This document shows, piece by piece, positions 8,056 through 46,548 of a stretch of DNA of 46,548 bases. Each line of letters starts with the position of its first letter. Within the stretch, counting starts at the first letter, position 1. The stretch comes from an uncultured Clostridia bacterium (lineage in GTDB: Bacteria > Bacillota > Clostridia > TANB77 > CAG-508): NCBI GenBank assembly GCA_944388745.1, contig CALXJZ010000003.1, positions 1 to 46,548 on the forward strand, given 5' to 3'. The position numbers and the translations under genes were made by a program. The notes under the pieces are model-generated. The model had not been told where the DNA came from, made no database searches, and worked only from the letters and a program-made list of their open reading frames with translations.

Positions 8056-8057
8056 TT

Positions 8058-9089: not shown

Positions 9090-9184
9090 ACAAAAAAGCT
9101 AAACTATTATAATAAATAATGTTTTGCACCTTGTTGTCGCAACCTTTGATTGTAAAAGAAAAATGAAAGATTGAGAGGTAAAAA

Positions 9185-10000: not shown

Positions 10001-10008
10001 ATGAATGA

Positions 10009-10132: not shown

Positions 10133-10203
10133 AAATAAAAGAATATAGTTTTTGTAAGTTAAATAGCAAACTAAACGAAGTAAAAGTGAAAGAGGTGAAC
10201 CAA

Positions 10204-10737
10204 GTGAAAAAATTAGTTATTAATATATTTTTGATTTTAACAATTTTTATTATCTATTTTTTGCAATCTAATTTTTTTACTTGGTTTAATATTGCAGGAA
10301 TAATGCCAAATTTATTTGTTGTTATAGTTTTGTTTATAGGGTTATTTGCAAGTAAAACTATGGGAACAATTTATGGAATAGTTATTGGACTTATATTAGA
10401 TTTATTATTTGGCAGAAGTGTTGGGATTCAGGCAGTTTCTTTGGGGCTAATTGGATTTTTAGCAGGAATATTTGATAAAAACTTTTCTAAAGATAGCAGA
10501 ATGACAATTATGCTTATGGTTTTAAGTTCAACAGTAATTGTTGAAGTATTAAATTATTTGTTTAAATACATGTTTGAAGGAATTAGTGTAGAAGTATTCA
10601 ATTTTGTTAAAATTTTAATTTTAGAAGTTATATTTAATTTATTATTAACGATTATATTATATCCATTAATTCGAAAATTTGGATATGATATAGAAAATGA
10701 ATATAAAGGTAATAAAATATTGACTAGGTATTTTTAA
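10204..10737 (+). CDS. mreD: rod shape-determining protein MreD
   Basis: A 177-residue, very hydrophobic protein with five or six predicted membrane helices and the MreD feature FVVIVLFIGLFASKTMGTIYGIVIGLILDLLFG (split around residues 38-70), in which GLILDLL is characteristic. It is the membrane scaffold of the elongasome and binds MreC. I chose GTG at 10204, six bases after AGAGGTG, rather than the GTG at 10186, which precedes the ribosome site. The gene ends 15 bases before mrdA. Confidence 0.9.
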   Translation: MKKLVINIFLILTIFIIYFLQSNFFTWFNIAGIMPNLFVVIVLFIGLFASKTMGTIYGIVIGLILDLLFGRSVGIQAVSLGLIGFLAGIFDKNFSKDSRMTIMLMVLSSTVIVEVLNYLFKYMFEGISVEVFNFVKILILEVIFNLLLTIILYPLIRKFGYDIENEYKGNKILTRYF

Positions 10738-10752
10738 AAGGCAGGTGATAAT

Positions 10753-12888
10753 TTGGTAAGCATTAAAAGAGGGACTACTAGAAAAGTAGCAAAAAAAGCA
10801 AATACAAATCTAAGATTTAATATAATAACAGTATTAATATATATTGTAGGAATTATTTTAATTGCTAGATTATTCGACTTGCAAATAGTTCACGGTGCAG
10901 AATATAGAGAACAATCAAATACAAGATTAACAAGGGAAAGTACAATTGAGGCAGCAAGAGGTTCGATATTAGATAGAAGTGGCCAAGAATTAGTTACATC
11001 AGATGCACAATTTTCTTTGGAAATGTATAAAACTAAAGTAGATGACCAGACATTAAATCAAGACATATTAAATATGGTACAAGTATTAGAAAAATACGGT
11101 TGTTCATATTCTGATGATTTTCCAGTAAATACTGACACATTTGAATATACAATTTCAGGAGATGAACTGCTAGACTGGAAAGAAGATTATGATATAGATG
11201 AGGATATGACAGCTGAACAGGCTTTTTATGAATTTAAAGATAAATATGAAATACAAAATACTGATATCCAAGAGATTAGAAAAATAATTGCAATAAGATA
11301 TTTGATATCACAAAAAGGATATAGTAGCACGAGAGCTGTTACAATTTCAGAAAATATACCAAGAGAAGCGGTTGCAGAATTTAGTGAGAGTTCATCTAAA
11401 TTTGCGGGTATAAATATAGTTGTTAAACCTGTTAGAAAATACACTTCTGGAACTTTAGCGTCACATATTTTAGGATATGCAGCACAAATAAGTTCAGAAG
11501 AATATGAAACGAGAAAGGAATATTATTCTCAAAATGATATAATTGGAAAAACGGGAATAGAATATGTTTTTGAAGAATATCTAAAAGGAAAAAATGGAAC
11601 AAAACAAATTGATATGGCGGTTGATGGTTCTACAACTGCTGAATATATAGCAGAAGAAGCTATTAAAGGTTCAGACATAGTTCTAACAATAGATGCAAAT
11701 TTACAAAGAGTTACGGAAGAAGCATTAAAAGCAAATATTGAAAAAATAAGAAATGGTGGATTCGGACAAAGATTTGATACAAATGCAGGAGCTTGTGTTG
11801 TAATGAATGTAAATACAGGGGAAGTACTTGCAATGGCAAGTTATCCAGATTATAACCCTGCAGATTTCGTCGGAGGAATAAGTACAGAAAATTGGAATAA
11901 TTATACAAATAATGAAGCAAAACCACTTGTAAATAAAGCTGTACAAAATTCATATTCACCAGGTTCTACTTTCAAGATGATTACAGCAATAGCAGGATTA
12001 GAGTCTGGAACAATAACTACCACAACAAAAATTAATGATACTGGTGTGTATAGAAAATATAGTGATTATCAACCAAGATGCTGGTATTTTAGTGATTATG
12101 GTAGAGGACATGGATGGCTTGATGTTGCAGGTGCAATTGAAAAATCATGTAACTATTTCTTCTATCAAACTGCTGATAATATGGGAATTGACACTTTAGT
12201 AAAATATGCTAAATATTTTGGTTTAGGAACAAAAACTGGTATAGAATTGCAAAGTGAAACTGCAGGACAATTGGCAAGCAGAGAAACAAAACAAAAATTA
12301 CATCCAGATGATCCAACTTGGTATCCAGCAGACTCATTACAAGCTGCAATTGGACAAAACGATAATGAATTTAGTCCATTGCAAATGGCGAAATATATAA
12401 GTATGCTTGCAAATGGTGGTAAACAAATAGATGTAAGTATAGTAAAAACAATTAGAAATTCAGATGGTTCAGAAGAGTCAAAAGAAGAAATTAATAATTT
12501 TGTGAATCAAAAATTAGGAATTGAAGAAACTGAAACTGAAGATATAACAATTGACCAAAATAATTTAAATGCGGTATTATCAGGAATGCAATCAGTAACT
12601 GGTGATTCTGGAGGAACTGCATATGTAAGATTTAGAGATTTTAACATAAGTGTTGGAGGAAAGACAGGTTCTGCTGAAGCCCCAAATGACAAAGTTCATG
12701 CATGGTTTGTTGGATTTGCACCATTTGAAAATCCTGAGATAGCAATAGTTGTTATGGTTGAAAATGGTGGACATGGAAATTATACAGCAGAGGTTGTAAG
12801 AGATATAATGGAAGAGTATTTTGGAATGAATACACAAGATATTCAAGAAGATATGACAGCTGAGCCATACACACAGAGTTTAAATTAG
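10753..12888 (+). CDS. mrdA: penicillin-binding protein 2 (class B transpeptidase of the elongasome)
   Basis: A 711-residue class B PBP. The membrane anchor is at about residues 25-43, followed by a dimerisation/pedestal domain containing ARGSILDRSGQELV (about 69-82) and the transpeptidase domain from about 310. All three active-site motifs are present: STFK in YSPGSTFKM (about 400), SCN near 472, and KTGSAE near 638. It cross-links peptidoglycan during elongation together with RodA, which is not in this window. The TTG start at 10753 has AGGTGAT five bases upstream. The stop codon is the first base pair set of a large palindrome that fills the gap to minC. Confidence 0.95.
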   Translation: MVSIKRGTTRKVAKKANTNLRFNIITVLIYIVGIILIARLFDLQIVHGAEYREQSNTRLTRESTIEAARGSILDRSGQELVTSDAQFSLEMYKTKVDDQTLNQDILNMVQVLEKYGCSYSDDFPVNTDTFEYTISGDELLDWKEDYDIDEDMTAEQAFYEFKDKYEIQNTDIQEIRKIIAIRYLISQKGYSSTRAVTISENIPREAVAEFSESSSKFAGINIVVKPVRKYTSGTLASHILGYAAQISSEEYETRKEYYSQNDIIGKTGIEYVFEEYLKGKNGTKQIDMAVDGSTTAEYIAEEAIKGSDIVLTIDANLQRVTEEALKANIEKIRNGGFGQRFDTNAGACVVMNVNTGEVLAMASYPDYNPADFVGGISTENWNNYTNNEAKPLVNKAVQNSYSPGSTFKMITAIAGLESGTITTTTKINDTGVYRKYSDYQPRCWYFSDYGRGHGWLDVAGAIEKSCNYFFYQTADNMGIDTLVKYAKYFGLGTKTGIELQSETAGQLASRETKQKLHPDDPTWYPADSLQAAIGQNDNEFSPLQMAKYISMLANGGKQIDVSIVKTIRNSDGSEESKEEINNFVNQKLGIEETETEDITIDQNNLNAVLSGMQSVTGDSGGTAYVRFRDFNISVGGKTGSAEAPNDKVHAWFVGFAPFENPEIAIVVMVENGGHGNYTAEVVRDIMEEYFGMNTQDIQEDMTAEPYTQSLN

Positions 12889-19694: not shown

Positions 19695-22600
19695 ATGAAT
19701 AGAATGATTAACAAAACTAAAAAGATAGTTTTAACAATAATAGCAATGGTCTTTGGAGTATTAAGTTTTACTACCGTAAGTTCAGCATATTATGTAGGCC
19801 AACGATTAAGTGTTTCATATTGGCAATATATGAGTAATTCTAATATATATTGTGTTGAGCATGGGCAAGCATTAAGAAATACTGTTTCATATAAAATCAT
19901 ATCTGAAATTGATATAAATGGTAAAACATCAACAGATTATACTGGAAAACAAATTACACATAATGATAATGCGAAACTTGCATATATATTATCAGGAGAT
20001 AATGGAAGTAATAAAAGTACAGGACCAGTAGCAAATGGAATATGGAACTTCATGTATACATGGATGCAAAGTGTAGGTCAACATCATGCAGGCTTATATA
20101 AAGGATTCGTAAGTAATACTAAAGGAAATAGTAGTTATCTAAATTCAGCAGCAAATAATTATGCTAATAATCTAGGTGATGCTAAAATTACTGATAATAC
20201 AAATAAAAATAATATTCAAGTAAAAGCTTATCAAAGAAACGGACACGATTATTTAAGAATTGGACCATTTAATTGGACTTTCTCTGGAACTATTACAGGA
20301 GTTACAGCTCTTGACCAAAATAACAATGGTATAAAAGGAATGATATATAGTAGTTTCAATGGAAATAGTGAATACTGGTATAATGTAAATCAGATTAAAT
20401 CAGGAAGAGATTTTTATATATCAATTCCAGCAGATGGAAATGTAACTCGAATAACTCAGATTTCAGCAACTGCTAGTATAGATGTTAAAGGTGTAAAAAT
20501 ATGGTTTTTGGAAGCAAACAATGGATATATGCAAAACTTAATTATCAGAGAACCACATACAGGAAAAGATGAAATTACAACACCATTTGATTATGATATA
20601 CCTATTCAAGGAAACTTAAGAGTAATAAAAGTAAATGAAGATAACCATGAAATTAGATTACAAGGAGTTGGTTTCTATATCCAACATAAACAAACTGGAA
20701 AATATGTACATCAAGATTCAAATGGTAATATTTCATATGTGGATTCAAGAGAACAAGCAACAGAATTTGTAACAGATTCTAATGGAGAGATTTTAATTAG
20801 AAACTTGATTGTCGGTACATATGTAGCATATGAAACTAAAAATCCTAATTATGGATATGAAATTATAAAAGATGGGCAAGAACAACAAATAGCAGTTGAT
20901 AAAACAACAGACTTTGTTATAGGAAATAAACAAATATATGTTAAATTATCTGGATTTGTATGGGTTGATAAACAAGCTGAAAAACAATGGATAAGAAATG
21001 ACTTATATCATGATGATGAATTTGATATAAATGATATTTTATTAAATGGTATAACTGTACGACTAAAAGATAGAACAACAGGTGAAACTGTAAAAGAAAT
21101 GGTAACAGGAGAAAATTCAGATTTAGGTGATGGACAATACTTGTTTACAGATGTATTGATTGAAAAATTATCTGATTACTATATTGAATTTGAATATGAC
21201 GGATTAACATATACAAATGTAGTACCACACTTATATGATGAAAATGGAAATGATTTACCAAATGGTTCTAAATCGGCAGAAAGTGCAGAAGATAGAGATG
21301 CATTTAATAGAGGATTTAGTGTAGTAGAGGGAAGAACACAAACAACTGGATATACACTTGATGAAAATGGTAATGAAAAACATCAATTGACATACAACTA
21401 TGATTCAACAGAGCATAAATCAACATTAATTAACAATGGACAATATCCAATAACAGCAAATACAGATGTTACGGAATATATAATAAGGGAACATTATACA
21501 GTCGGACAAGAAGAGATAAAATATATTAATTTAGGTTTATATGAAAGAGAACAGCCAGATTTAGCAATAGCTAAGGATATTGAAAATGTAAGAGTTACAG
21601 TAAATGGATATGAACATACATATGAATATGCACAAAGATTTAACCATCCAGAAAATTATGGTGGAGAAGGATTTAATGTAGGTGTTAAATTTGGAGAAAA
21701 ATATGCAGCTGAGCCATATACAAGAGCAATTTATGAAGCAGATTATGAATATGTAAATGAAAATGACCCAAGTAAAGAACTAAAAGTATATATTACGTAT
21801 AAAATAGCAATGAAAAATGAATCAACTAATTTAATTGCTCAAATAAATAGTATTGTAGATTATTATGACAGCAGATATAGTATTATTGGAGTAGGTACAG
21901 GTGTAGATGAAAGAGGCAATATAACTGGTGGACTTGAATATACAGAGGGAACTTATAATGATAATTACAAGAAAGTTGTAATTAATAATAATACTAGAAT
22001 AGACCCATTAACAAGTACATTAGATTCAAATGAAGGAAATGTATATGTACAATTTGAATTAAATAGAGAAGCAGTAATAAATGTATTAAATGGACAAGAA
22101 ACTCTAGATAATGTAGTTGAAATTAATTCATATTCAATATTTGATATCAATGGAAATATATATGCAGGTATAGATAAAGATTCTAATCCAGGAACTACTA
22201 ACCCTGAAAATAAAGCAACATATGAAGATGATACAGATGCAGCATTATCATTAAGATTAGAAGTTGCAGACGCAAGGGAAATGACAGGTAAAGTATTTGA
22301 AGATGAACCAGTAGCAGAAAGTGGAGAAGATGTATCTGGAGTTATGACAGGAAAAGTAAGACAAGGTAGTGGAATTTACGAAGATGGTGAAACTGGAATT
22401 GCAGGAGTAGAAGTTACATTAACAGAAAATACAGGAAGCGGAAAAGTATATAATGCAACAACAGATGCAAATGGTGATTTCTATATAAGTGGATATATAC
22501 CAGGAGACTATACATTAACATATACTTGGGGAGATCAAACTTATACAGTACAAAACTATAAAGGTACAGTGTATAATGCTGATAGAGATCAAAATAATAA

Positions 22601-23672
22601 AGAATGGTATAAGCAAGATGTTGATATACGTTATACAGATGCTTTAGATGATTATGAATTAAGACAAGCAATAGATGCAGAATTAACACATATAGAAAAT
22701 AGTACACAGACAACGATTGACAAGATGAATTCTATGACTCCAACTATGGGAATAGGTGTAGAATATGACACAACAACAACTGCATCAACAGGAGATAGAT
22801 ACACATATCAAATAAGAAACATAGACTTTGGTATTATAGAAAGGGCTAAACAAGATATATCAATTAATAAAAGAGTAAAAACATTAAAAGTTACATTAGC
22901 TAATGGACAAGTAGTAAATAATATTACAATAGAAGATGATGGAAGCATAACAGGAGATAAAAGTAATATTACTTATATGCCACCATCAGACATGACACAA
23001 CCTGCTAATGGATTTATAAGAGTAGAGCTAGATAATGAAGTAATGCAAGGGGCAACATTAGAAGTAGGATATGAATTTGTAGTGACAAATAATAGCGAAT
23101 TAGATTATTTATCAGAAAGATTCTATAAATATGGAATTGTAGAAGGAAATGTAGTAACAATTAATGCAACTGGAATTATAGACTATCTAGATAAGGATTG
23201 GGCTTTTGATAGTGAAACTAATACACAATGGCAAATAAAAACATTAGATGAAGTAAAAGACCTATTACAAGAGGAAGTTTATCAAACAGAGACTTCAACA
23301 ATTGATGATAAAACAATTCTTTATACTGATAGTTTAAAAGATGCACAAATTGAACCTACTCAATCTGAAAGTATAATGTTAAATGTATCAAAAATCTTAA
23401 CAACAAGTGAAGATATATCTTTAGATAATGAAACTGAAATTGTAGAAGTAGACAAAACAGGAGGATCAGATTTAGTATCTACACCAGGTAACTATATACC
23501 AGGTACAGGCCATACAGAATCAGATGATGATATGGCAGAAACGGTTATAGTTACACCAGCAACAGGAGATAACTTATCATATATTCTACCAATTTCAATT
23601 GGAATAATTGCATTATTAGTAATAGGTGTAGGAGTTATAGTTATAAAGAAAAAAGCATTAGGAAATAATTAA
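19695..23672 (+). CDS. giant surface protein with thioester-like N-terminal domain, SpaA/Cna-B repeats and PxTG-type sorting signal
   Basis: A 1325-residue protein with ribosome site AAAGGAGG. The signal peptide ends near residue 31 (VSSA). The mature N-terminus has NIYCVEHGQ (Cys53) and later AKLAYILSG and GIWNFMYTW (about 94-122), resembling a Cys-Gln thioester domain, but the position expected to be Gln is Ala113. Prealbumin-like (SpaA/Cna-B/SdrD-B) domains follow at about 306-390, 416-510 and 862-957, with Gly-Tyr and E-T-K patterns of isopeptide-forming domains. The C-terminus has TPATG (1287-1291), a hydrophobic stretch and IKKK, a sortase-type signal. Second gene of the operon; a hairpin terminator follows. 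The second half of the next gene is a paralogue of this protein. Likely a wall-linked adhesin; substrate unknown. Confidence 0.8.
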   Translation: MNRMINKTKKIVLTIIAMVFGVLSFTTVSSAYYVGQRLSVSYWQYMSNSNIYCVEHGQALRNTVSYKIISEIDINGKTSTDYTGKQITHNDNAKLAYILSGDNGSNKSTGPVANGIWNFMYTWMQSVGQHHAGLYKGFVSNTKGNSSYLNSAANNYANNLGDAKITDNTNKNNIQVKAYQRNGHDYLRIGPFNWTFSGTITGVTALDQNNNGIKGMIYSSFNGNSEYWYNVNQIKSGRDFYISIPADGNVTRITQISATASIDVKGVKIWFLEANNGYMQNLIIREPHTGKDEITTPFDYDIPIQGNLRVIKVNEDNHEIRLQGVGFYIQHKQTGKYVHQDSNGNISYVDSREQATEFVTDSNGEILIRNLIVGTYVAYETKNPNYGYEIIKDGQEQQIAVDKTTDFVIGNKQIYVKLSGFVWVDKQAEKQWIRNDLYHDDEFDINDILLNGITVRLKDRTTGETVKEMVTGENSDLGDGQYLFTDVLIEKLSDYYIEFEYDGLTYTNVVPHLYDENGNDLPNGSKSAESAEDRDAFNRGFSVVEGRTQTTGYTLDENGNEKHQLTYNYDSTEHKSTLINNGQYPITANTDVTEYIIREHYTVGQEEIKYINLGLYEREQPDLAIAKDIENVRVTVNGYEHTYEYAQRFNHPENYGGEGFNVGVKFGEKYAAEPYTRAIYEADYEYVNENDPSKELKVYITYKIAMKNESTNLIAQINSIVDYYDSRYSIIGVGTGVDERGNITGGLEYTEGTYNDNYKKVVINNNTRIDPLTSTLDSNEGNVYVQFELNREAVINVLNGQETLDNVVEINSYSIFDINGNIYAGIDKDSNPGTTNPENKATYEDDTDAALSLRLEVADAREMTGKVFEDEPVAESGEDVSGVMTGKVRQGSGIYEDGETGIAGVEVTLTENTGSGKVYNATTDANGDFYISGYIPGDYTLTYTWGDQTYTVQNYKGTVYNADRDQNNKEWYKQDVDIRYTDALDDYELRQAIDAELTHIENSTQTTIDKMNSMTPTMGIGVEYDTTTTASTGDRYTYQIRNIDFGIIERAKQDISINKRVKTLKVTLANGQVVNNITIEDDGSITGDKSNITYMPPSDMTQPANGFIRVELDNEVMQGATLEVGYEFVVTNNSELDYLSERFYKYGIVEGNVVTINATGIIDYLDKDWAFDSETNTQWQIKTLDEVKDLLQEEVYQTETSTIDDKTILYTDSLKDAQIEPTQSESIMLNVSKILTTSEDISLDNETEIVEVDKTGGSDLVSTPGNYIPGTGHTESDDDMAETVIVTPATGDNLSYILPISIGIIALLVIGVGVIVIKKKALGNN

Positions 23673-24028: not shown

Positions 24029-27000
24029 ATGAAGGGAAGAGTTTTTAAAACGGCAATTGTATTTCTGTTGATATTTACTATATTATTGAGTCATGCAGCA
24101 GTTTTAGCAGAAGAAGTGGTAAATAATATAGAAGAAAAAGCAAAAGCTTTAATCGAAGTATCAATTAGTAAATATAATAATTTTAATATAGAAGAAAGGA
24201 AAGGTACTCTTTTACAATTCAATGTAAAAACAGGAATTGAATATGCAGAAGGCCAAGATTATGGTGCAATTAAAAAGACTACAACATTAGTAGATATTCC
24301 TGAATTAAATGGACAGTTACCTGAAAGAGTAGAAGTAATTGCTCAGAGTACTAAAGCTACTAATGGGCAAACTAGTAATATACAAGGCAATTATTCATAT
24401 GATAAAGAACAAGGAATATTGCAACTAATTGCTAGTAATGAGGGTGAGGAACCATATAATCAATATGATAGTTCATCAAGAGATGAATATGAAGTCATAT
24501 GTGTTTATGGAGAAAATGCGTATACAGAGCAAAATGAAGAACGAATTATTGAAATAAAGGCTGTAGTTAGTGAAGATTTATATAATGAAGAAATAGGAAG
24601 TGTGACACAAACAGTAACTCTACCACAAAATTTAACTGAAAATATAGGTAGTATTATTTCTTCAGATATAAGAACAGAAAACATTTATGATGGTTATATT
24701 AAATCAAATACGGCTCATAATACTGATTATCAAACTGCATATAAAGAATCTATGAATTTACTAATTAGTTATAAGGATATAGGAGAAAAAATAGTAATAG
24801 ATCAAAGTAATAGTTGGCAAGATGAAAATGAACAAAACTTGGATAATGTCGATAATGTTATTTATACAAGTACCCAAATAAGTAAACAAGATATGATAGG
24901 TATCTTAGGTGAAGAAGGAACTATAAAAGTATTAGCACAAGATGGAAGCATTATACAAGAAATAAATAAAGATACAGAAGAAGCTCAAGAAGGTATTATA
25001 GAGATAATATATCCAGAAAATACAGAAAATATAAAACTTGAATTTTCTAAACCAATTAAAGAAGGTATTATTAGATTACAAAATAATAAAATCATCAAAA
25101 GTAGTGTAACTAGTTTAAATGCAAAAAGAATAGTTACTAATGAAAGTATATCTTTATCAAATGGAGAAGTAATTGAAAACGCACAAAAAATTACAGAAAT
25201 ACAAAATGCAAAATCTAGTGTAAATCTTCAAATTGATAATAATGGTTTAGGAAATGGAGTTACTAATAATGTCGTTTTAACTGCAACTTTGAAATCAGAT
25301 AGTAGTGAATACAATTTATTTAGAAATCCAGTTTTAAGAATTACATTGCCAGCAGAAGTAGAAAAGGTTGTATTAGGTGATGTTTCTATATTATATGGAA
25401 ATGCTCTTAATATTGTGGAAAGTAATGTGGTTGACAATAGTGAAGGAAATAAAGAAATTGTTATTCAATTAGATGGAGAACAAACATCATATAATACTGA
25501 TAATATTAATGCAGGAGCTAATATTGTAATTCCAGCAAATATTGTATTAAAAAGTGATATTTCTTCAACACAATCTGTTATTAAAGCAAGTTATACAAAT
25601 GAAGTAGTATCTAGAAATGGCTATATTACAGAAGAAGGAAATTGTGATGATATTCCAATTGATATTGTTAATACTGTAGCTAGTGAAGGAAAAAATCAAG
25701 AAGAAGAAGTTTTATCATCAGATGCAAATCAGGATATACAAAATACAAATCAAAATACACAAACTTCAAATCAAGAAATTCAAGGCCAAGGAATTGAATT
25801 AGAAGTATATGCACAAGTTGGAGATAAGAGATTAGAAAATGGAGATAACATACATACAAGTGAAATTATAAAATATGTTGTAAGTGTTACAAATACAACT
25901 GATACTACAATGAATAATGTGCAAATTAATTGTCAAATACCAGAAAACACAGTATATGCAACAGTTGATATTGGAACATATACTCAAGAAGCTTATGATT
26001 ATATTGAAAATCCTGATTTAAAAGAATATAGGTTTGTTGCCGAGACATTAGAACCAGGGCAAACTAGAACAGGATTTTATGAGATTGTAGTTAAAGATTT
26101 AGCAGATAGTGAAAATGAAAAACAAATTAGTAATACAGTTTCAGTTAGTATTGGCAATACAGAATATGCAAGTACTACATTAGAAAATACATTAATAAAA
26201 TCAGATTTAGATGTATATTTGAAATCATATATTGCTAGAGATTTAAAAAATGGTTTTTCTTACTATTTAGATATTACTAATTTAACAGATCAAACTATAA
26301 ATGATGTAAAAGTAGAATCTACTGAATTTCAAAAGGAAATGAACATATTAGATGCTTATTATTATACAGATAGTGAATTAGCACTTCAAAAATTTGGAAC
26401 ATATGAAAATGGTAAGTTAGAGGGAGTAATTTCATCTATCGAACCAAATGAAACGATAACAATTGAAATTGTAGTAGAAGCATATAATTTTGATGATAAT
26501 GTAAATGAAGTTCCATTAACAATGTCTGTAAAATCATATACTGATGAAAATGATATATATTATTCAAATGAAAATAGGAGATCTGCATATCCAACATATG
26601 TAACAGTAAAAATGTCTTCTGATAGAGAAGGAGAAGAAGTTAGATATGGAGAAGAAGTTACATATATATTAGAGATAACAAATGAGTCAAAGATAAGAGC
26701 AAATGTTCATGTGTATGATTATTTACCAGAATATCTTGAACCTGTTTCTCTTGAGTATGAAAGATATATTATTGAAGATGATGGCTTTGGGGATACTATG
26801 TATGATATAGAAGCTGAGGCAAATATTGGTTATGAACTAGAAAAAGTAGAAAGAGATCTTTCACTAATTATTGAGGATCAGGCAAATATAGATGAATATT
26901 TAGAAATTCCAGCAGGAAAAACTGTTACAATGACAATTAAAGCAACAACAGTTGATACAAATGAGACAGTGCAAGTTTCTAATTATGCAACTGCGGAAAA

Positions 27001-30000
27001 AACAGAAGAGGATGAAAATATAGGAATAAAAACTGTTACTTCAAATATTGTTAATTTCACTTTATTAGCAGCATATGAAGATGAGGAAGATCCTAATACT
27101 GGTAATAGTGGTCAAAGCGGAAATGGAAATAATAATAATGGAGGAACAACTGCTGAACCTCATTCTATTTCAGGTGTTGCTTGGTTAGATGCTAATAGAG
27201 ATGGAAAAAGAGATAGTTCAGAGCAATTAATGAGTGGAATAGAAGTTAAATTATATGATGCAAGTACACAGACTATTGCACAAAATGAAAATGGAGAAAC
27301 TTTAAGAACAACAACAAATTCTCAAGGAGCATATGAGTTTAATAATATACAAAACGGAAATTATTGGGTATTATTTGAATATGATACAGGTAATTATTCA
27401 TTAACTTCTTATCAAAAGAGCGGAGTTTCAGCTACATTAAATTCTGATGTTATAGCAAAATCTGTATCAATAGATGGAATAGAAAAAAACGTCGGAATGA
27501 CTGATACTATAACTATTGCAGATAATGGCTTATCTAATATTGATATGGGGTTAGTAACTAATAATAAGTTTGACTTAAAATTAGATAAATATATTAGTCA
27601 AGTTGTTGTAGAAACATCAAGTGGAACTAAGACATATAATTATCAAAACACACAATTTACAAAAGTTGATATAAAATCAAGAGAAATTGCAAACAGTAGA
27701 ATAACTGTTGAATATACTATTGTTATAACAAATGAAGGAGATATAGAAGGATATGCTAGCCAAATTGTAGACTATATTCCAGAAGGATTTACATTTGATG
27801 CGAGTCAAAATAAAACTTGGCTAAAAAATGAAAATGGAGATTTAGTTAATAGTAGTTTATCAGGAGAATTTATACAACCTGGTGAATCAAAACAATTAAC
27901 TTTAACATTAAATAAAAACTTAGATGAAGACTCAACAGGAAGTGTTATTAATGTAGCAGAAATAGGGCAAAGCAGAACAGCAAATAATTTGTCAGATATT
28001 GATTCTATAGGTGGAAATAGAAATTCATCAGAAGATGATTATTCACAAGCAGAGTTATTAATTTCTATTGAAACAGGTGCTTTAACATATACAATAATTA
28101 CAATTTTGGCAATTGGAATATTGACATTAATTATATTAATTATTAAAGGCAAAATAAAAATAAAACCATTTAAAAATAATAAAATTAAAAATATATTTAG
28201 TATATTTATGATTACAGGAGTTTTAGGAATTGTATTATCATCAGATGTATATGGATTTAGTGTTAAATGGTCAGCAGGTGATTATTTCACAGGAAGTAAT
28301 GATGTAAAATATGTTTGTGGACATACAGGTTGGCATATGTGTGCTACTAGTAACCATTATTACAATGGAACTGCATCTCAAATAAATGTAGAAAATTCTA
28401 CAGGTGATCCAGTAACATTGAAAACATTAACTCTAACAGAAAATGATAGTTCAGTTGATGTTGTAGCATTAAATGATACCTATAATTTAGTTGGACCTTA
28501 TAAAATAAGAAGTAATTGTGCAGACTCATATATAAGTGCTATTAATATACAGTATACACAAAATGGCCAAGCAAAGAAATCAACTAATACAAATCTTATT
28601 GTAGATCCAAAAGGAAATAAAATGGATTTAGATATGACTCAAAATAGAGACTATACTTTTTATATTAAAGTAAGTAGTAGTGTAGAAAAAATAAATAGTC
28701 TAAAGCTTACAGTTACTACAAAAGATGCAGTAAGAATTAGAACTACAACAACATATAAACTGAAATATATGTGTACTGGTCTTGAGGATGGTAGACATGA
28801 AAATGCTTCAGGAGGACTATCTACAACAGCAAAAGTAGAAACTACTCAACCAATGGTAACTTATAAGGAATATAGCGAATATGATGACGACTACAAAGAT
28901 GCTTCAAAAAATGTTTCATTTGGTTCAGTAGAAATTAAAGGTAGAATTACAATAAATAAAACAGATCCAGATACCGATGGAAATGGTAAAGCTTTAGAAG
29001 GAATAGGATTTACTTTAAGAATGACTTCAGGAAAATATGAAGGTTATTATGTATCAGCAGATAAAAATGGAAATGCAGTATATAATAGAGAGGAAACAAC
29101 ATTAATTACTGATAAAAATGGTAAAATTGCGATTAATTTATTAGAACAAGGTACATATGAATTGATAGAAACAGTAAATCCATATTATGGATATGAAGAA
29201 TTACCAAAAGTTATTAACAGTAATTTAACTATCAAAAATGGAAGTAACACTACATTAAATATTGAAAATGAAAGAAAATATATTAAAATTTCAGGATATG
29301 CATGGGAAGATATTGCTTGGGAAGTAGGAAAAACAGAAGATGCAAACCAATTATACAAAAATGTTGCAGATGATATTAATGATAAATTACTAGAAAATAT
29401 TACTGTTAGATTAAGAGACAACGAAGGAAATATAGTACAATTTAAAGATGAAGATGGAAATTTGGTAGATGAAACTGTAACAGATTCTAATGGTAAATAT
29501 ACTATGGTAGATGTATCAATAGACGATTTGGATAAATATTATATAGAATTCTCATATAATGGTATGGCATATGAATCAGTAAATATTATAGATATAGCTA
29601 ATCCTAATGGAACAGAAGCTATCGAGGGAGATAATAGGACAATATTTAATGAAAATTTTGCTCAGATAACAGCTGGTCAATCAAATGATAGTGGTGGAAC
29701 AAAAATAAATGATATACAATATAATACTGAAGATTATAAGAGCACAATTAATTATGAGGGTGAATATTTATACGGATACAGTGATGAGCAAATTGAAGAA
29801 GTTGCACCATATACAGGAATTACTTTAGAGGACTATAAAACATATTATCCAGTAAATGGAGTAGCTGATAAGTATATAACTTCATCTACTACATATAATG
29901 CATATACATCAGTAGGACAATCAGGATATTTATCAGATATAATAAGTGCAGATGAAATAAGAGAAAATGGAATAACTGAAATAGGAAGTACATTTGAAGA

Positions 30001-32428
30001 AGGTATAAACTTAGGATTAAAGAAAAGAGAAAGACCAGATTTATCAGTAGTAAAAGATGTAGAAAGTGCAAAAGTAAGTATAGTTGGAACACAACACGTG
30101 TATAAATATGGTGATAGATTTAACCAAGACTTATGGGAAGAAAATAGTAATGGAGTAAGTGGACATGATTTAGATCCACAAGTAAAATTTGAAGAAAAAT
30201 ATGCCGAAATGACGTATTCTAGACCATTATATCCATCAGATGTTTATTACGATGGAACAGATGACGAAGAAATTCGTGTAGAAATGACATATAAAATAGC
30301 AGTGAAAAATAATTCAACAAACTTAGGTGCAAATATTTATGAATTAGATGATTACTTTGATTCTAAATATAACTTAGTAGCAATAGGAACAGATATAAAT
30401 GCAGATGGAAGTATAATGGAAGGAACTGAAATTGTAGATTATACAGATGTAACAGAGGTTAATAGTGAATACAAGAAAGTAACAATTGGTGGAAATAATA
30501 GAGCTATCTTAGAATTAGGACCTCAACAAGAAGGATTTGTTTATGTAATACTTGAAGTAAATAAAGATAATATAATAGATATTGTTGAGTCAGAAGATAA
30601 TGAATATGCTAAATTAGACAATATATCAGAAATCAAAACATATGGTATAACAAAAACTAATGATAATGGTGAAAGTAAAGTATTTGCAGGAATTGACAAA
30701 GATTCTCAACCAGGAAATACAGATGTAAATGATAGAACAACTTGGGAAGATGATACAGATAAAGCACCTGGAATATTACTAATACTACAACAATTAAGAA
30801 CAGTAAATGGAAAAGTATTCTTAGATACAGATGAAACTTCTTTAGATGCAGGTAGTAGAGTACATACAGGAATAGCAAGACAAGGAAATGGACAATATGA
30901 TGATGATGAACAAGGAATACAAAATGTAAAAGTAACATTAGTTGATACTGAAGGAAATGTGGCACAAGTATATAGTGAAGATACTGAAACATATGAGGAT
31001 GCAGTGACTTATACTAATGAAAATGGAGAATATACAATTGATGGATTTATACCAGGAGAATATCAAATACAGTATACTTGGGGAGGTAATATAGACGGAA
31101 ATGGAATTAACTCAACATATACCCTAGATACAGGTGATGAACAAATTGTTAATGTACAAAATTATAAAAGTACAGTTGTAGATGAAACTGTATGGAATGC
31201 AAAAGGAACAGAAAAAGAATGGTATAAAGATAGCTTTAAACAAAATTATCCAGGATTAGAATGGAATACTGAAACAAATACGGAGATTCGAGCATCAGAT
31301 GCAGTAGATGATTATAACACAAGACTTAATATAGATTCAGAGATAGGTGATATGACTTATGCTGAAAAACAAAAATTGGAAAATACATATGATCCAAGTA
31401 GTACAGCAGATAAATATACAAATACACAAATGAATTCAACTACACAAAGTTTTGATGTTTATATTGAACTTAATGATACTGAAGATGTAAGAGATAATAT
31501 AACAGAACAAGGAACTATATCAGCAAGTGAAATTACTAGTGTGGATTTTGGAATAATAGAAAGATCAAGACAAATATTACAATTAGATAAAGAGATAACA
31601 TCAGTAAAAATTACTTTAGCAAATTCAAATGTTATAGTAAATGCTCAATTAGAAAATGGCCAATTAATAAATAATGCACAATATGTAACAGTAATGCCAC
31701 CTTCAAACGCAAATAATGGACAAGTTAAGGTTGAAATAGATCAAGAATTAATACAAGGAGCAACACTTGATATAGAATATGCTTTAAAAGTAACAAATAT
31801 TAGTGAGTTAGATTATCAAACACCTGAATTCTATATGTATGGTATTGGACATGGAGAAATTGAATCATCACTTATAACATTACAACCTTCATTAATAATA
31901 GACTATATAGATAACAACATGTCAACAGAAAGTGAAGACCATGAAAATTGGACTGTAGTCGCACAAGCTGATAGAGCTGATTACTTGTATGATGAAAATA
32001 GTAATCCAGATGGATTATTATCAAAGGACTTAGAAAGTACATTAAATAGCACAATTAAAATAATAACAACAGATCAACTAAAAGATGATGTATTAAAACC
32101 AATAGGAAATGATAGTGAAACAAGTACAACGGCATTATTAAGTGCACATAAATTATTATCAAATAATGATGAAACATTCTTAGAAAATAATGCAGAGATT
32201 ATAGTAGTCAAGAAAAATAATGGTGGACCAGTAATAACTACAATACCAGGAAATTATGAACCAGGTAATACTTATACATCAGAGGAAGACGATTCAGAAG
32301 CACCAGGAGTAACCATTGTACCACCAACAGGACAAACAACAAATACTGTTTCATACATTATAATAGCAATAAGCTCACTTGCAATAATAGTAGCAGGAAT
32401 AATCTTAATTAAGAAATTCGTGATTTAG
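24029..32428 (+). CDS. 2799-aa surface protein: head-to-tail fusion of two adhesin types in one ORF
   Basis: The ATG has ribosome site GGAGGAA. The first half (1-1373) parallels the 1611-aa protein upstream: signal peptide (1-28), beta repeats, DUF11-like module near 591-650, SdrD B-like domain near 1046-1140 (WLDANRDGKRDSSEQ), FDLKLDKYIS near 1181, and a membrane segment at 1350-1373. A basic loop (KGKIKIKPFKNNK) follows, then a second hydrophobic segment (1389-1410, ending SSDVYG) that looks like the signal peptide of the 1325-aa protein. The second half parallels that protein: a Cys-containing module near 1428, a SpaA-like domain near 1639, ISGYAWEDIAW near 1752, an SdrD-like domain near 2259, and VPPTG (2764-2768), hydrophobic tail, IKKFVI. 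Topology should place both halves outside the cell with a short cytoplasmic loop between. A frameshift-free open frame of 8.4 kb argues that the fusion is real and maintained. The stop codon lies within a GGGAC-type repeat. Confidence 0.8.
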   Translation: MKGRVFKTAIVFLLIFTILLSHAAVLAEEVVNNIEEKAKALIEVSISKYNNFNIEERKGTLLQFNVKTGIEYAEGQDYGAIKKTTTLVDIPELNGQLPERVEVIAQSTKATNGQTSNIQGNYSYDKEQGILQLIASNEGEEPYNQYDSSSRDEYEVICVYGENAYTEQNEERIIEIKAVVSEDLYNEEIGSVTQTVTLPQNLTENIGSIISSDIRTENIYDGYIKSNTAHNTDYQTAYKESMNLLISYKDIGEKIVIDQSNSWQDENEQNLDNVDNVIYTSTQISKQDMIGILGEEGTIKVLAQDGSIIQEINKDTEEAQEGIIEIIYPENTENIKLEFSKPIKEGIIRLQNNKIIKSSVTSLNAKRIVTNESISLSNGEVIENAQKITEIQNAKSSVNLQIDNNGLGNGVTNNVVLTATLKSDSSEYNLFRNPVLRITLPAEVEKVVLGDVSILYGNALNIVESNVVDNSEGNKEIVIQLDGEQTSYNTDNINAGANIVIPANIVLKSDISSTQSVIKASYTNEVVSRNGYITEEGNCDDIPIDIVNTVASEGKNQEEEVLSSDANQDIQNTNQNTQTSNQEIQGQGIELEVYAQVGDKRLENGDNIHTSEIIKYVVSVTNTTDTTMNNVQINCQIPENTVYATVDIGTYTQEAYDYIENPDLKEYRFVAETLEPGQTRTGFYEIVVKDLADSENEKQISNTVSVSIGNTEYASTTLENTLIKSDLDVYLKSYIARDLKNGFSYYLDITNLTDQTINDVKVESTEFQKEMNILDAYYYTDSELALQKFGTYENGKLEGVISSIEPNETITIEIVVEAYNFDDNVNEVPLTMSVKSYTDENDIYYSNENRRSAYPTYVTVKMSSDREGEEVRYGEEVTYILEITNESKIRANVHVYDYLPEYLEPVSLEYERYIIEDDGFGDTMYDIEAEANIGYELEKVERDLSLIIEDQANIDEYLEIPAGKTVTMTIKATTVDTNETVQVSNYATAEKTEEDENIGIKTVTSNIVNFTLLAAYEDEEDPNTGNSGQSGNGNNNNGGTTAEPHSISGVAWLDANRDGKRDSSEQLMSGIEVKLYDASTQTIAQNENGETLRTTTNSQGAYEFNNIQNGNYWVLFEYDTGNYSLTSYQKSGVSATLNSDVIAKSVSIDGIEKNVGMTDTITIADNGLSNIDMGLVTNNKFDLKLDKYISQVVVETSSGTKTYNYQNTQFTKVDIKSREIANSRITVEYTIVITNEGDIEGYASQIVDYIPEGFTFDASQNKTWLKNENGDLVNSSLSGEFIQPGESKQLTLTLNKNLDEDSTGSVINVAEIGQSRTANNLSDIDSIGGNRNSSEDDYSQAELLISIETGALTYTIITILAIGILTLIILIIKGKIKIKPFKNNKIKNIFSIFMITGVLGIVLSSDVYGFSVKWSAGDYFTGSNDVKYVCGHTGWHMCATSNHYYNGTASQINVENSTGDPVTLKTLTLTENDSSVDVVALNDTYNLVGPYKIRSNCADSYISAINIQYTQNGQAKKSTNTNLIVDPKGNKMDLDMTQNRDYTFYIKVSSSVEKINSLKLTVTTKDAVRIRTTTTYKLKYMCTGLEDGRHENASGGLSTTAKVETTQPMVTYKEYSEYDDDYKDASKNVSFGSVEIKGRITINKTDPDTDGNGKALEGIGFTLRMTSGKYEGYYVSADKNGNAVYNREETTLITDKNGKIAINLLEQGTYELIETVNPYYGYEELPKVINSNLTIKNGSNTTLNIENERKYIKISGYAWEDIAWEVGKTEDANQLYKNVADDINDKLLENITVRLRDNEGNIVQFKDEDGNLVDETVTDSNGKYTMVDVSIDDLDKYYIEFSYNGMAYESVNIIDIANPNGTEAIEGDNRTIFNENFAQITAGQSNDSGGTKINDIQYNTEDYKSTINYEGEYLYGYSDEQIEEVAPYTGITLEDYKTYYPVNGVADKYITSSTTYNAYTSVGQSGYLSDIISADEIRENGITEIGSTFEEGINLGLKKRERPDLSVVKDVESAKVSIVGTQHVYKYGDRFNQDLWEENSNGVSGHDLDPQVKFEEKYAEMTYSRPLYPSDVYYDGTDDEEIRVEMTYKIAVKNNSTNLGANIYELDDYFDSKYNLVAIGTDINADGSIMEGTEIVDYTDVTEVNSEYKKVTIGGNNRAILELGPQQEGFVYVILEVNKDNIIDIVESEDNEYAKLDNISEIKTYGITKTNDNGESKVFAGIDKDSQPGNTDVNDRTTWEDDTDKAPGILLILQQLRTVNGKVFLDTDETSLDAGSRVHTGIARQGNGQYDDDEQGIQNVKVTLVDTEGNVAQVYSEDTETYEDAVTYTNENGEYTIDGFIPGEYQIQYTWGGNIDGNGINSTYTLDTGDEQIVNVQNYKSTVVDETVWNAKGTEKEWYKDSFKQNYPGLEWNTETNTEIRASDAVDDYNTRLNIDSEIGDMTYAEKQKLENTYDPSSTADKYTNTQMNSTTQSFDVYIELNDTEDVRDNITEQGTISASEITSVDFGIIERSRQILQLDKEITSVKITLANSNVIVNAQLENGQLINNAQYVTVMPPSNANNGQVKVEIDQELIQGATLDIEYALKVTNISELDYQTPEFYMYGIGHGEIESSLITLQPSLIIDYIDNNMSTESEDHENWTVVAQADRADYLYDENSNPDGLLSKDLESTLNSTIKIITTDQLKDDVLKPIGNDSETSTTALLSAHKLLSNNDETFLENNAEIIVVKKNNGGPVITTIPGNYEPGNTYTSEEDDSEAPGVTIVPPTGQTTNTVSYIIIAISSLAIIVAGIILIKKFVI

Positions 32429-32568: not shown

Positions 32569-32739
32569 ATGTAATAAAATAAAAAACGTAAAAAGAGTAA
32601 ATAAAAGAAATAAAGGAAAACCTCTTAAAAAAACCTAAAAAAATGTAAAGAACTTTTTTGAATTAGATTACCAAAAAAGACAAAAACCACAAAGGACAAG
32701 TAGTAAAATAAGCTTATTAAAAACAAAGAGGTGGTAAGG

Positions 32740-35187
32740 ATGTTTCAAAATATGGATGGAAATGCAATAAATGTAAATGAAGGAAAAAAGGATATAAAAA
32801 GCGGAGTAAATATTTTTTCAAATGTATTTACAAAGAAAAACATATTAATATATATAGTATCATTATTAGTATCATTAGTAAGTATAGGATGGGACTTTTC
32901 AGTATTTAGCATTAGTTTATTAGGAGCTTGTTTAAGTTCATCTGTACCTGTACTTGGAATCGTACTAATTTCATTAGTAGGAAATGGTATTAAATTTGGA
33001 GTAGGAGGAGCATTAGAATACTTTTTAACAACATTAGTTCTAGTAATCTCTCTTTTCATATTTAAACCAAGATATAACGAAAATGAAAGAAATGAAAAAA
33101 TAAGAATAGGGAAAAATATATTTTTAGCAACAATCATAATACAAATTGCAAAATATGCAATTTCAGGATTTACACTTTATGATATATTATCAGGGATAAC
33201 AGTTTCAATAATTGCAATGGTATTCTACAAAATATTTGTAAATTCTATTGTAGTGTTACAAGATTTTAGACAAAAAAGAGCATTTTCGATCGAAGAATTA
33301 ATGGGAGCAAGTTTATTACTTGCGATTTCCGTAGGAGCATTTGGAGATTTTAACATAGTAGGATTTAATATTAGAAATATCTTAAGCATATTTATAGTAA
33401 TGGCATTAGGATGGAAAAATGGAATTCTAGTTGGGACAACCTCAGGAGTAACAATAGGAGTTACTTTAGGAGTAATAACAGGTTCAGAACCAATTATGAT
33501 AGCAGCATATGCAATATCAGGAATGCTTGCAGGAATATTTAATAAATTAGGAAAAATTGGAGTAATAATAGGATTTGCACTAGGGAATGTATTGCTTGCA
33601 TATGTTTCAAATGGATATACTGTAGAACTAATATATTTTAAAGAAATATTAGTTGCATCAATTGGATTACTTTTATTACCAAAAAATTTCCAAATAGATT
33701 TAGAAGAATTTATAGGAAATTCAAAATTTTTACCAGTTGTGCCAAATGGAGCGCTAAATAAAAGCAAGGAAGTTGCAGAAAACTTAACACATGTATCGGA
33801 TGCAATAAAAGAAATGGCAACATCATATAGAGGAAATATCGAAGATACAAGTGATGTAGAAATAAAAGAAAAAAATAAAGAAATATTTATGACAGAATTA
33901 TTAAATAATTTAGAGGCATATAAAGATAATATGTTATATGATGACATAGCAAATCCAGAAAGTGAAATCACAAAAAAGATATTTGAATATCTATTAGATA
34001 AACAAGAAATAGATAGAAAAGCATTGCTACAAATATTTGCAGATTGTAATAGCTATGTTGTAGGATTTGATGATAAAGAAGTTAGTCAATATTTAGAAGA
34101 TAATATATCTCAAATGGTTACATTAATAAATATTTCATATAAAGTTAGCAAAAATGACTTTATATGGAGAAAAAAGATAGAACAAAATCAAAAAAATATA
34201 GGAAACCAATTAACAGCGATGTCAAAAGCCATAGAAAAAATGGCAAAAGGAATGAAACAAGAAATACAAGAAGAAGCAAGCGGAAAAAATGATAATTATC
34301 AAAAAGAAACAATAAAAATCACAGAACTTTTAAAACAAAAAGATATACAAGTAGAAGAAATATTAATACAAAAACAAGATAGATTTTTCGTTACAATATA
34401 TGCAAAAGAAATTTTAGAAACAGCAAAAATAGAACTAATTGAAAAGCTATTAACAAAGAGTTTAGTAGAAAAAATAGTATTAAATGACGAAACAAGTGTT
34501 GGAACAAAATACACATTTTTATCAGACGATAAATTTGAAATGGCAATTGGAAATAGTATGGCAACAAAATCAAAAAGTGAGATATCAGGAGATAGCATAT
34601 TAAATATAAGACTAAAAGATGGAAAATACCTTGTTGCAATAAGTGATGGGATGGGAACAGGAAATCAAGCTAAAAAAAGCAGTACACAAGCATTAAAAAT
34701 GTTAGAAAACTTACTATTGTCTGGCTTTGATAAAAAAACATCATTAGACTTAATAAACTCATCATTAATAAATCAAGATAATGAAGTATTTGCAACACTA
34801 GACATAGCAATTTTAGACTTATATAAAGGAAACATAGAATTTATAAAAAGTGGAGCATGTCCAACATACATAAAAAACAATAAAAGAGTACAAATAATAA
34901 AAGCAAACTCATTACCAACAGGAATAATAGAAAAAGGAAACATACAAACATTTGACTATGATATAAACTCAGGAGATATTCTATTAATGTGTACAGACGG
35001 AGTATTAGACGCAAACATAGAATACAAAAATAAGGATCTATGGTTAAAATACTTATTAGAAGACATAGAAACAACAAATACAGGGAAAATAGCAGATTTA
35101 ATATTAAATGAAGCAATAGACAATAACTTTGGAGTAATAAAAGACGACATGAGCATAATAGTATGCAAATTTAAAAAGAGGGATTAG
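32740..35187 (+). CDS. spoIIE: stage II sporulation protein E (SpoIIE), PP2C-type phosphatase
   Basis: An 815-residue protein, the usual SpoIIE length. The first 330 residues contain about ten membrane helices, the middle (about 330-580) is a helical regulatory/FtsZ-interacting region, and the last 220 form a PP2C phosphatase. Metal-binding aspartates are in SDGMGTGNQ (near 636), CTDGVLD (near 752) and KDDMSIIVC (near 802). SpoIIE sits at the asymmetric septum and dephosphorylates SpoIIAA, releasing sigma-F in the forespore. The start is ATG 32740 just after AAAGAGGTGG. The gene is a marker of true endospore formation. The genes often found next to it (tilS, hpt, ftsH) are absent; a WG-repeat gene follows instead. 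Its TAG stop lies inside a repeat element. Confidence 0.93.
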   Translation: MFQNMDGNAINVNEGKKDIKSGVNIFSNVFTKKNILIYIVSLLVSLVSIGWDFSVFSISLLGACLSSSVPVLGIVLISLVGNGIKFGVGGALEYFLTTLVLVISLFIFKPRYNENERNEKIRIGKNIFLATIIIQIAKYAISGFTLYDILSGITVSIIAMVFYKIFVNSIVVLQDFRQKRAFSIEELMGASLLLAISVGAFGDFNIVGFNIRNILSIFIVMALGWKNGILVGTTSGVTIGVTLGVITGSEPIMIAAYAISGMLAGIFNKLGKIGVIIGFALGNVLLAYVSNGYTVELIYFKEILVASIGLLLLPKNFQIDLEEFIGNSKFLPVVPNGALNKSKEVAENLTHVSDAIKEMATSYRGNIEDTSDVEIKEKNKEIFMTELLNNLEAYKDNMLYDDIANPESEITKKIFEYLLDKQEIDRKALLQIFADCNSYVVGFDDKEVSQYLEDNISQMVTLINISYKVSKNDFIWRKKIEQNQKNIGNQLTAMSKAIEKMAKGMKQEIQEEASGKNDNYQKETIKITELLKQKDIQVEEILIQKQDRFFVTIYAKEILETAKIELIEKLLTKSLVEKIVLNDETSVGTKYTFLSDDKFEMAIGNSMATKSKSEISGDSILNIRLKDGKYLVAISDGMGTGNQAKKSSTQALKMLENLLLSGFDKKTSLDLINSSLINQDNEVFATLDIAILDLYKGNIEFIKSGACPTYIKNNKRVQIIKANSLPTGIIEKGNIQTFDYDINSGDILLMCTDGVLDANIEYKNKDLWLKYLLEDIETTNTGKIADLILNEAIDNNFGVIKDDMSIIVCKFKKRD

Positions 35188-44837: not shown

Positions 44838-46548
44838 ATGAAATTGAAAAAAGTATTAGTAGTTATTGTATTAGCGATTGCTTTTATGCTTAATGTTTTA
44901 TTATATTCAAATGTAGTTTATGCAGCAACAGCCAGTACACCAATGTATTTAGGAATTACTGAATTAAAAATGGATAGTGGAATGGGATATGCAATAGGAG
45001 ATCCAGGTACAGGAAGTACAACAAGCACAGCTGCAAAAATATGGAATATTGTAAAATATAGTACAGCTTCATCTAATGATCCAACTGAGGCAAATATTTA
45101 TTGTGTAAAATCAGGGGTTGGTTTTCAAAATACAAATGAAAGAGCGACTTATGATATTTTTTATGATATGAAGTCTCAAAAAAGTGAAATTCAAGAACAA
45201 AATGAAGTATTAAGAGGATTAGTAGAAGGAACTATAGAATTAGATGATGGAACAACTATAAGCCAATATAGTGCTATACTTGCTTCATTAGATTTATTTT
45301 ATTATAGCAAGACATCTTCTGAAGAAGATCGAGCAGCTTTATTGCAGGCAGCACAAGTTCCTACTTATACATATAATTTAACTGATGATGATATAGAAGC
45401 TGTTCAACAAGCAGCATTATGGTATTTTACAAATTATGGAGAAGATAATGGGAAATTTGATCAAACTTCAAAATCTGGATGGTTAAATTATACAACAAAT
45501 GGAACTAGCTATACAAGTTTAGGGGATTATAATATAGGAACGAGGGAAGGACAACAAAGAGAAGAACAAGCACAAATTTTATATAATTATTTAGTTAGAA
45601 CAGCTATAAAAAATGCACCTAAATATGACAATGTTGGAACACAATCAACAGGTGCACCTGCACAAGTAAATACAACAAGAATAGATTATGAGGAAAGTAA
45701 TGGTAATTATATTATAGGACCAATTAATATTTCAGAAAATGCAAGTAATCCATCTTCATATACTATTGATTTTGTTGTTGAAGAAGCAGGAATAGAGACA
45801 TCTGATTATAAATTATTAGATAGTAACCAATCAGAAGTATCTCAAGGAACAACAGTAAAAGATTTAGTAGGACAAAATTTCTATATTTCTGTACCTAATA
45901 CTGTAAATATTGGAGATATTAGTGTTAATATAACTATTAATTATAGTAATACGAAATTAACATTATGGGTATCAAGTACAAATAATGGAGAACAACCAGT
46001 AGTAATACCAGAAAAAGAAAATGTGTCAGTACCAACTGAATTAACTATTACACAACATGATGACAGAGAATTTGACTTAGCATTAAGAAAATACATTACT
46101 GAAGTAAATGGAGTGGAATTAACAGGAGCAAATGTTAGAGTTCCAAATATTGACGAATCAACATTAGCTTCAGGTACAACTGCTACATATAAACACAAAA
46201 AAGACCCAGTTCTTATAGAATCAGGTGATGTAGTAACTTATAGAATTACAATATACAATGAAGGAGAAAAGTCTGGTAGAGCAACAAAAATAGTAGACCA
46301 ATTACCAGAAGGATTAGCATTTTCTCAAGTTGTAAGTGGAAACTTTGAATTAGATAGTTATGATGAAGAGACTAATAGATTGAGTTTAAAGAGAAGTGAT
46401 AGTAACACAGAAAATTTAGACCCATATACAGAAGGAAATTTAGACTCAGAAACTATAGAAATAGAATGTACAGTAACAGCAACACCAGATACTCAAAATT
46501 CAACAATATTAACAAATGTTGCATGGATTTCAGAAGAATATGATGCAG
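44838..46548 (+). CDS. surface adhesin with Cys-Gln thioester domain and DUF11-like repeats (3' truncated by window edge)
   Basis: The frame is open from the ATG at 44838 (ribosome site AAAGGAG) to the window end: 570 residues so far, with no stop. A signal peptide (about 1-30, ending VVYAA) precedes an N-terminal domain with IYCVKSG (Cys89) and AVQQAALWYFTNY (Gln191, Trp195). This is the [YFL]C and Q-x-A-[IVL]-W pair that forms the internal thioester in TED adhesins, a reactive group that couples covalently to host surface amines. Two beta-sandwich segments follow (about 270-390), then FDLALRKYITEVNG (about 413) and a DUF11-like repeat (ESGDVVTYRITIYNEG). The FDL-L-KYI element also occurs in the two large proteins upstream, showing shared ancestry. 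The C-terminal anchor is outside the window. Confidence 0.85.
   Translation, partial: MKLKKVLVVIVLAIAFMLNVLLYSNVVYAATASTPMYLGITELKMDSGMGYAIGDPGTGSTTSTAAKIWNIVKYSTASSNDPTEANIYCVKSGVGFQNTNERATYDIFYDMKSQKSEIQEQNEVLRGLVEGTIELDDGTTISQYSAILASLDLFYYSKTSSEEDRAALLQAAQVPTYTYNLTDDDIEAVQQAALWYFTNYGEDNGKFDQTSKSGWLNYTTNGTSYTSLGDYNIGTREGQQREEQAQILYNYLVRTAIKNAPKYDNVGTQSTGAPAQVNTTRIDYEESNGNYIIGPINISENASNPSSYTIDFVVEEAGIETSDYKLLDSNQSEVSQGTTVKDLVGQNFYISVPNTVNIGDISVNITINYSNTKLTLWVSSTNNGEQPVVIPEKENVSVPTELTITQHDDREFDLALRKYITEVNGVELTGANVRVPNIDESTLASGTTATYKHKKDPVLIESGDVVTYRITIYNEGEKSGRATKIVDQLPEGLAFSQVVSGNFELDSYDEETNRLSLKRSDSNTENLDPYTEGNLDSETIEIECTVTATPDTQNSTILTNVAWISEEYDA

Follow-up and report, generated by a model that had tools for sequence, protein, structure and literature searches.

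Sortase-anchored surface proteins of the SdrD and SpaA type in Gram-positive bacteria are composed of a signal peptide, a stalk of SdrD_B, DUF11, or SpaA domains, and a C-terminal PxTG motif followed by a helix and a basic tail. The open reading frame (ORF) analyzed here has the same parts and lies in a 46,548-nucleotide stretch of an uncultured Clostridia bacterium (contig CALXJZ010000003.1 of assembly GCA_944388745.1; this whole stretch is called the window below). Unlike SdrD- and SpaA-type proteins, it comprises two such proteins in frame, here called A and B, and has an anchor and a further signal peptide midway along the chain. The arrangement occurs in a group of uncultured, gut-type Clostridia.

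Animal viruses are the textbook case of polyproteins divided by signal peptidase, with the host enzyme cutting glycoprotein polyproteins at internal signal peptides. The arrangement proposed here is similar, with a stop-transfer helix, a short cytoplasmic loop, an internal signal peptide, and a signal peptidase cut. In contrast to the viral polyproteins, it concerns a bacterial surface pair that has a split two-gene form in relatives, and no sequence relation is claimed. In Clostridioides difficile, the S-layer pre-protein SlpA is described as being cut by Cwp84 into LMW and HMW subunits (PMC7445750). The window ORF would likewise give two surface subunits from one surface pre-protein. Whereas SlpA is processed by a cell-surface cysteine protease (PMC7445750), the internal anchor and signal peptide of the window ORF point to signal peptidase, and no cell-wall-binding repeats as in SlpA-type precursors are among its Pfam matches at E 0.01. 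The surface-protein modules themselves are known, while narrow searches of the open-access literature found no bacterial precedent for such a surface polyprotein arrangement.

We consider it fairly probable that the ORF product is a secreted surface polyprotein divided by signal peptidase, and one gene may well yield two surface proteins. If so, the split sister genes at the same chromosomal site would offer a natural before-and-after comparison of an operon with a polyprotein, and the fused gene would be a carrier into which surface-protein partners are swapped and a source of matched surface-protein pairs from one frame.

Two paralogous halves in one frame

The ORF has the position and size given in the initial annotation and zero internal stops (Table 1). 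The same annotation described its halves as paralogues of the two preceding genes in the same order, and the alignments bear this out. Residues 1-1385 align with the upstream A protein (P0002) at a local score of 1116 (mean 169 and maximum 245 for 30 shuffles), and the C-terminal half aligns with the upstream B protein (P0003) at a score of 1519 (mean 91, maximum 125), both far above the swapped pairings (N-terminal half with B, 210, shuffle maximum 121; C-terminal half with A, 207, shuffle maximum 163). Since the swapped pairings also exceed their shuffles, the A-type and B-type proteins are themselves weakly alike. In BLASTP, the N-terminal half matches A with 42% identity over residues 1046-1347 (E 1e-61), and the C-terminal half matches B with 35% over residues 1634-2768 (E 2e-150). 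For residues 1410-1630 the sole BLAST match to the B protein has E 3.1; this head of B varies across the family.

Table 1. Coordinates of the fused gene, its predicted parts, and neighboring genes in the window
Feature	Positions	Strand	Basis or remark
Fused A-B ORF, 2799 aa	24029..32428	+	No internal stop
N-terminal signal peptide with probable cleavage behind AVLA (residue 27)	24029..24109	+	Sequence; predicted cut site
SdrD B-like domain of the A half (residues 1047-1159)	27167..27505	+	Pfam, E 3e-20 for the whole protein
DUF11 domain of the A half (residues 1223-1320)	27695..27988	+	Pfam
SIETG, end of the A module before the anchor helix (residues 1346-1350)	28064..28078	+	xxTG motif, model
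Internal anchor helix TM1 (residues 1351-1372)	28079..28144	+	AlphaFold helix, hydrophobic sequence
Basic loop (residues 1373-1388)	28145..28192	+	Sequence
Former B signal peptide inside the chain, with a possible signal peptidase I site ending at VYG (G1409)	28193..28255	+	Sequence, model; low matrix score
Variable head of the B half (residues 1410-1637)	28256..28939	+	Only an E 3.1 match to P0003
SpaA (prealbumin-like) domain (residues 1638-1748)	28940..29272	+	Pfam, E 6e-17 for the whole protein
Probable recombination zone (residues about 1760-1836)	29306..29534	+	Crossover of identity profiles, L155/L193
PPTG resembling a sorting signal, ahead of the last helix (residues 2765-2768)	32321..32332	+	Sequence
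Paralogue A, separate gene, 1611 aa	14838..19673	+	Sequence similarity
Paralogue B, separate gene, 1325 aa, in the frame of A, 21 bases past the A stop	19695..23672	+	Similarity
spoIIE, right-hand neighbor of the pair site	32731..35187	+	SpoIIE_N and SpoIIE domains

Pfam places SdrD_B and DUF11 domains in the N-terminal half and a SpaA domain in the C-terminal half. The sole NCBIfam family above its own cut-off is a DUF11-type repeat, and zero sequence relatives of the window protein (P0001) were found in the PDB at E 0.001. The chain has a hydrophobic start with AVLA at residues 24-27, as read by eye, and ends with PPTG, a hydrophobic stretch, and a KK tail; a PxTG motif is present within the last 60 residues of 138 of the 169 B C-ends. 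The genome contains six sortase genes above the Pfam cut-off, as well as one full-length and two partial signal peptidase matches. Another DUF11 protein, truncated by the window end, is encoded at 44838-46547 and has a weak match to the thioester domain TED below the cut-off.

At the join of the two halves, the initial annotation had noted an anchor helix of the A type, then a basic loop and a former signal peptide. All three are seen in the sequence, with helices in the AlphaFold model. The modeled helices span residues 1351-1372 and 1384-1403, the second with pLDDT of about 54-79 per block of ten. The limits first drawn were 1350-1373 for the anchor and 1389-1410 for the signal peptide. The preceding SIETG terminates a beta strand in the model. 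A-module ends usually consist of S, G, or A, then I or V, any residue, and T-G, and xxTG stands ahead of a hydrophobic stretch in all 76 fused and all 77 split A ends of the joint set described below; the usual sortase-motif proline is found in 0 of these 153, though T-G precedes the helix in 153 of 153. The A end may be a second sorting signal, with the T-G in its favor and the missing proline and the position at a strand end against it. The linker of the fused set has a median net charge of +5 (range 0 to 7). The internal hydrophobic segment has a median hydropathy of 2.75 in fused genes (lowest 2.23) and 3.22 in split ones. A fold search with the junction model gave nine matches at E<=0.001 (best 2.9e-4), all to Ig-like or other beta-sandwich chains and nothing specific, with query-normalised TM-scores of at most 0.29 among the 50 rows listed.

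Distribution and origin of the fused genes

Matches were found in 57 of the 58 genomes drawn from the genus, the window genome included. Sampling with less bias, from the window and 60 regions of 46 among the 56 other genomes with matches, gave 85 A ends, of which 69 had a separate B frame, nine were fused, and seven lay at edges or alone. Two of the 69 split-called ends (L036 and L085) and three of the seven others (L066, L083, and L087) resemble fused genes in continuing past the junction, after which they meet a stop, a frame shift, or the region edge. In summary, nine of the 85 A ends are clearly fused, and five more are of the fused type, interrupted or edge-cut; L066 and L083 are intact in longer stretches (L150 and L133, respectively). 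The frame ends are more than 60 bases apart in 13 of the 69 split-called pairs.

Of the 210 genomes in the genus, 208 contain matches to a profile of the fused junction; split A genes make up many of the listed rows. Further fused genes were added from the best of these listed matches, hence the composition of the joint set of 153 distinct A ends, 76 fused-type from 63 genomes and 77 split-type from 46 genomes, is not a frequency. Split and fused versions, both expected in related genomes under the fusion proposal, are thus present side by side, and 15 genomes hold A ends of both types.

Both modules are contained in a single ORF in 58 of the 76 fused-type cases, from 53 sampled genomes of the genus. 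This bears on the possibility that the window ORF is an assembly error or a pseudogene, as might be suspected from the state of the source assembly (96 contigs, 87% complete) and from the remaining 18 fused-type ORFs without an in-frame B module, of which 12 end in a stop and six leave the stretch. The same in-frame state in 58 ORFs of 53 genomes makes an assembly error very unlikely, and the window ORF is open across 2799 codons; we give this explanation next to no weight. It is also opposed by the dN/dS values for the window gene and the fused gene L155 of another species, which are 0.19, 0.32, and 0.39 in the three compared parts. At the junction dN/dS is 0.19 for this pair. Over 39 close pairs the junction values range from 0.10 to 1.48, with one undefined, and the linker is therefore not under strong constraint everywhere.

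In a draw of 117 genomes of the family, some of them from this genus, matches were found in 113 genomes and in 38 of 39 genera. Among 20 stretches from 16 of these genomes, picked for long frames, 15 of the 16 A ends are split, which suggests that the two-gene form is likely the older one. The sole fused copy from another genus, L207, has a junction sequence identical to that of L190 from this genus; its relation to L190 and L180 may reflect a recent transfer or a misplaced contig. The open frame of 24,382 aa reported for L205 and L206 (G304:C5) crosses masked bases (N) and gives no support to a giant gene.

Fused and split pairs share one chromosomal place, upstream of spoIIE. The loci contain 53 SpoIIE-like frames, of which 23 directly follow a fused gene and 30 follow a B frame that has no A module. 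The intact split cases number fewer than 30, since four loci with a SpoIIE-like frame in two pieces are counted twice, L092 and L195 (both 55,672 bases) are probably one contig, and what L135 and L187 contribute are fragments of B, about 360 aa long, that follow interrupted fused genes. The split B genes of L193, L194, L092, and L039, which are among the sisters of the C-terminal stalk of the window ORF, precede spoIIE as the window gene does. In L193 (9923-19711 of CAMLUO010000004.1, uncultured Clostridium sp.), A and B at this site are split yet in frame, with just a stop and one codon between A and the ATG of B. The pair-adjacent SpoIIE-like frame is in two pieces in L035, L059, L135, and L187. 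In the window, the A-B pairs are located between a radC-mreB-PBP cell-shape cluster (7300-12888) and spoIIE.

The fused A modules have an old common origin in one or very few events, one being the simplest account. On a tree of 146 A modules, built without the last 25 residues and thus without most of the anchor, the fused/split label changes twice, compared with a mean of 48.8 for shuffled labels. The second change is L036-9622, whose A module lies within the fused clade and ends after the anchor; the next B frame follows 589 bases on and begins without a signal peptide. In a tree of 57 rows, all fused rows and this interrupted L036 copy are on one side of a branch with support 90, below the 95 mark, and a clade of the fused rows without the L036 copy is rejected (p 4e-5). 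Adding 16 rows from other genera raises the number of label changes to three and places two split A genes from those genera, L209 (on a long branch) and L211, on the fused side.

The initial annotation derived the window ORF from a local duplication of the adjacent pair with loss of the intergenic stop and start. This step would be easy, as the upstream A and B genes share one frame at a distance of 21 bases, and L193 has an even shorter spacer. The trees speak against it. The grouping of the fused A modules indicates an old fusion and not a stop loss in the adjacent pair. The N-terminal half clusters with other fused genes, apart from P0002. Its sister is L155 (79% identity over the A module), and the C-terminal stalk is sister to split B genes of other species; in global alignments the halves are just 31% and 39% identical to the neighboring genes. 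A recent local fusion is thus highly improbable, and the window copy appears to have arisen from the old fusion and recombination rather than as a fresh duplicate of its neighbors. An in-frame bias of split pairs was considered as a hint of stop readthrough and rejected, with 17 of 65 and 17 of 56 pairs in frame, near one third; pairs from other genera were omitted from this count because their loci had been picked for long read-through frames.

Exchange of B partners

In the B modules, fused and split genes intermix, which means that A carriers and B partners were exchanged. A tree of 148 B rows, obtained with some long-branch warnings after leaving out 25 of 173 rows of unknown state, contains 27 fused/split changes, 25 of them forced by well-supported branches. 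On a tree of 38 B rows the label changes 13 times (shuffled mean 12.9), so the fused label is no more clustered than by chance, and a single fused clade is rejected (p 2e-102). Divergent B heads also occur behind similar A ends within one genome. The two fused-type genes of L152 have A ends 84% identical and B heads at dN 0.67, and the two copies of L186, one of them interrupted, share 88% identity in the A ends, with dN 0.95 between the B heads.

The identity profile shows the window ORF to be itself a mosaic of a fused-lineage front and a split-B-type stalk, with a probable crossover zone (Table 1). Over residues 1-1400 it is 57-80% identical to the fused gene L155 per 100 residues. Over residues 1836-2510 the identity per 75 residues is 60-88% with the split B gene of L193 and 28-63% with L155, and from residue 2511 to the end both are equally near (51-61%). 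Matches to the nearest split B proteins start at residues 1628-1638 (E cut-off 1e-5).

Translation and predicted processing at the junction

A start codon with a Shine-Dalgarno match ahead of the B signal peptide is present in 61 of 65 split genes and in one of 76 fused genes, L137, where the start is TTG; 12 of the 77 split A ends were left out as having no B ORF within reach. If translation of B began anew at its own start within the fused frame, the fusion would be only apparent, and some in-frame ATG does occur between the anchor and the signal-peptide core in 55 of the 76 fused copies. The near absence of Shine-Dalgarno starts in fused genes indicates that the second half is made by reading through. 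A separate B product from fused genes is hardly to be expected, and we regard this explanation as quite improbable.

For the chain made by reading through, we propose the following sequence of events. The first signal peptide would export the A half, a repeat-rich stalk, until the internal helix after SIETG halts transfer and leaves the basic loop in the cytoplasm. The former B signal peptide would then restart export, and signal peptidase I would cut behind it, leaving A anchored via a helix hairpin and B free to be sorted to the wall by sortase via its PPTG end. A presumable benefit would be the supply of both proteins in fixed 1:1 amounts at one place.

A site obeying the signal-peptidase rule is found in the internal segment of 72 of the 76 fused genes (the exceptions are L177, L178, L183, and L188), and none of 1000 shuffles reached this number (mean 56.0). 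Among 29 fused representatives below 60% identity, 27 have a rule site, as matched by one of 1000 shuffles, and so have 63 of the 65 split B signal peptides. Unrelated membrane segments of polytopic proteins also pass in 227 of 331 cases (one of 332 was dropped, and the membrane side is uncontrolled in this set). As the rule is this loose, a matrix trained on split B signal peptides is the better test. Its median score is 3.27 for fused segments, 5.74 for held-out split signal peptides, 0.24 for shuffles, and -1.95 for the 331 control membrane segments. The fused segments exceed the controls (p 1e-26) and the shuffles (p 9e-18), the excess persists in the 29 representatives with near copies removed (p 2e-8), and they score lower than the held-out split signal peptides (p 6e-4). 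These scores argue that the cut sites are real as a feature of the family, yet weaker than those of stand-alone B proteins.

An uncut chain would carry both stalks outside, with the former signal peptide serving as the second membrane helix of an internal hairpin. Consistent with such a chain are the four fused copies without a rule site, the lower scores of fused segments relative to split signal peptides, the passing of the rule by most ordinary membrane segments, and the score of the window site, which resembles shuffles. The matrix excess over shuffles and controls, which also holds in the representatives, counts against it, and we consider it less probable than cutting. Of the two options in the initial annotation, a chain looping twice through the membrane and a cut by signal peptidase (after SSDVYG in the window protein), the cut is thus favored for the family. 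For the window protein it is less sure, as its own segment, with VYG ending at residue 1409, scores at percentile 39 among shuffles, 75 among control membrane segments, and 9 among fused segments.

Returning to processing by signal peptidase, we see about an even chance for the wider proposal of a lineage of surface polyproteins, in which an old fused A carrier, occurring in many species of one genus, would acquire different B partners through recombination behind the junction, with their release by this enzyme.

In three genomes (L085, L173, and L175), fused-type genes end 71-76 residues past the A module, shortly behind the internal signal peptide. The junction sequences of L085 and L173 are nearly alike. 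These early ends could reflect decay or some kind of switching.
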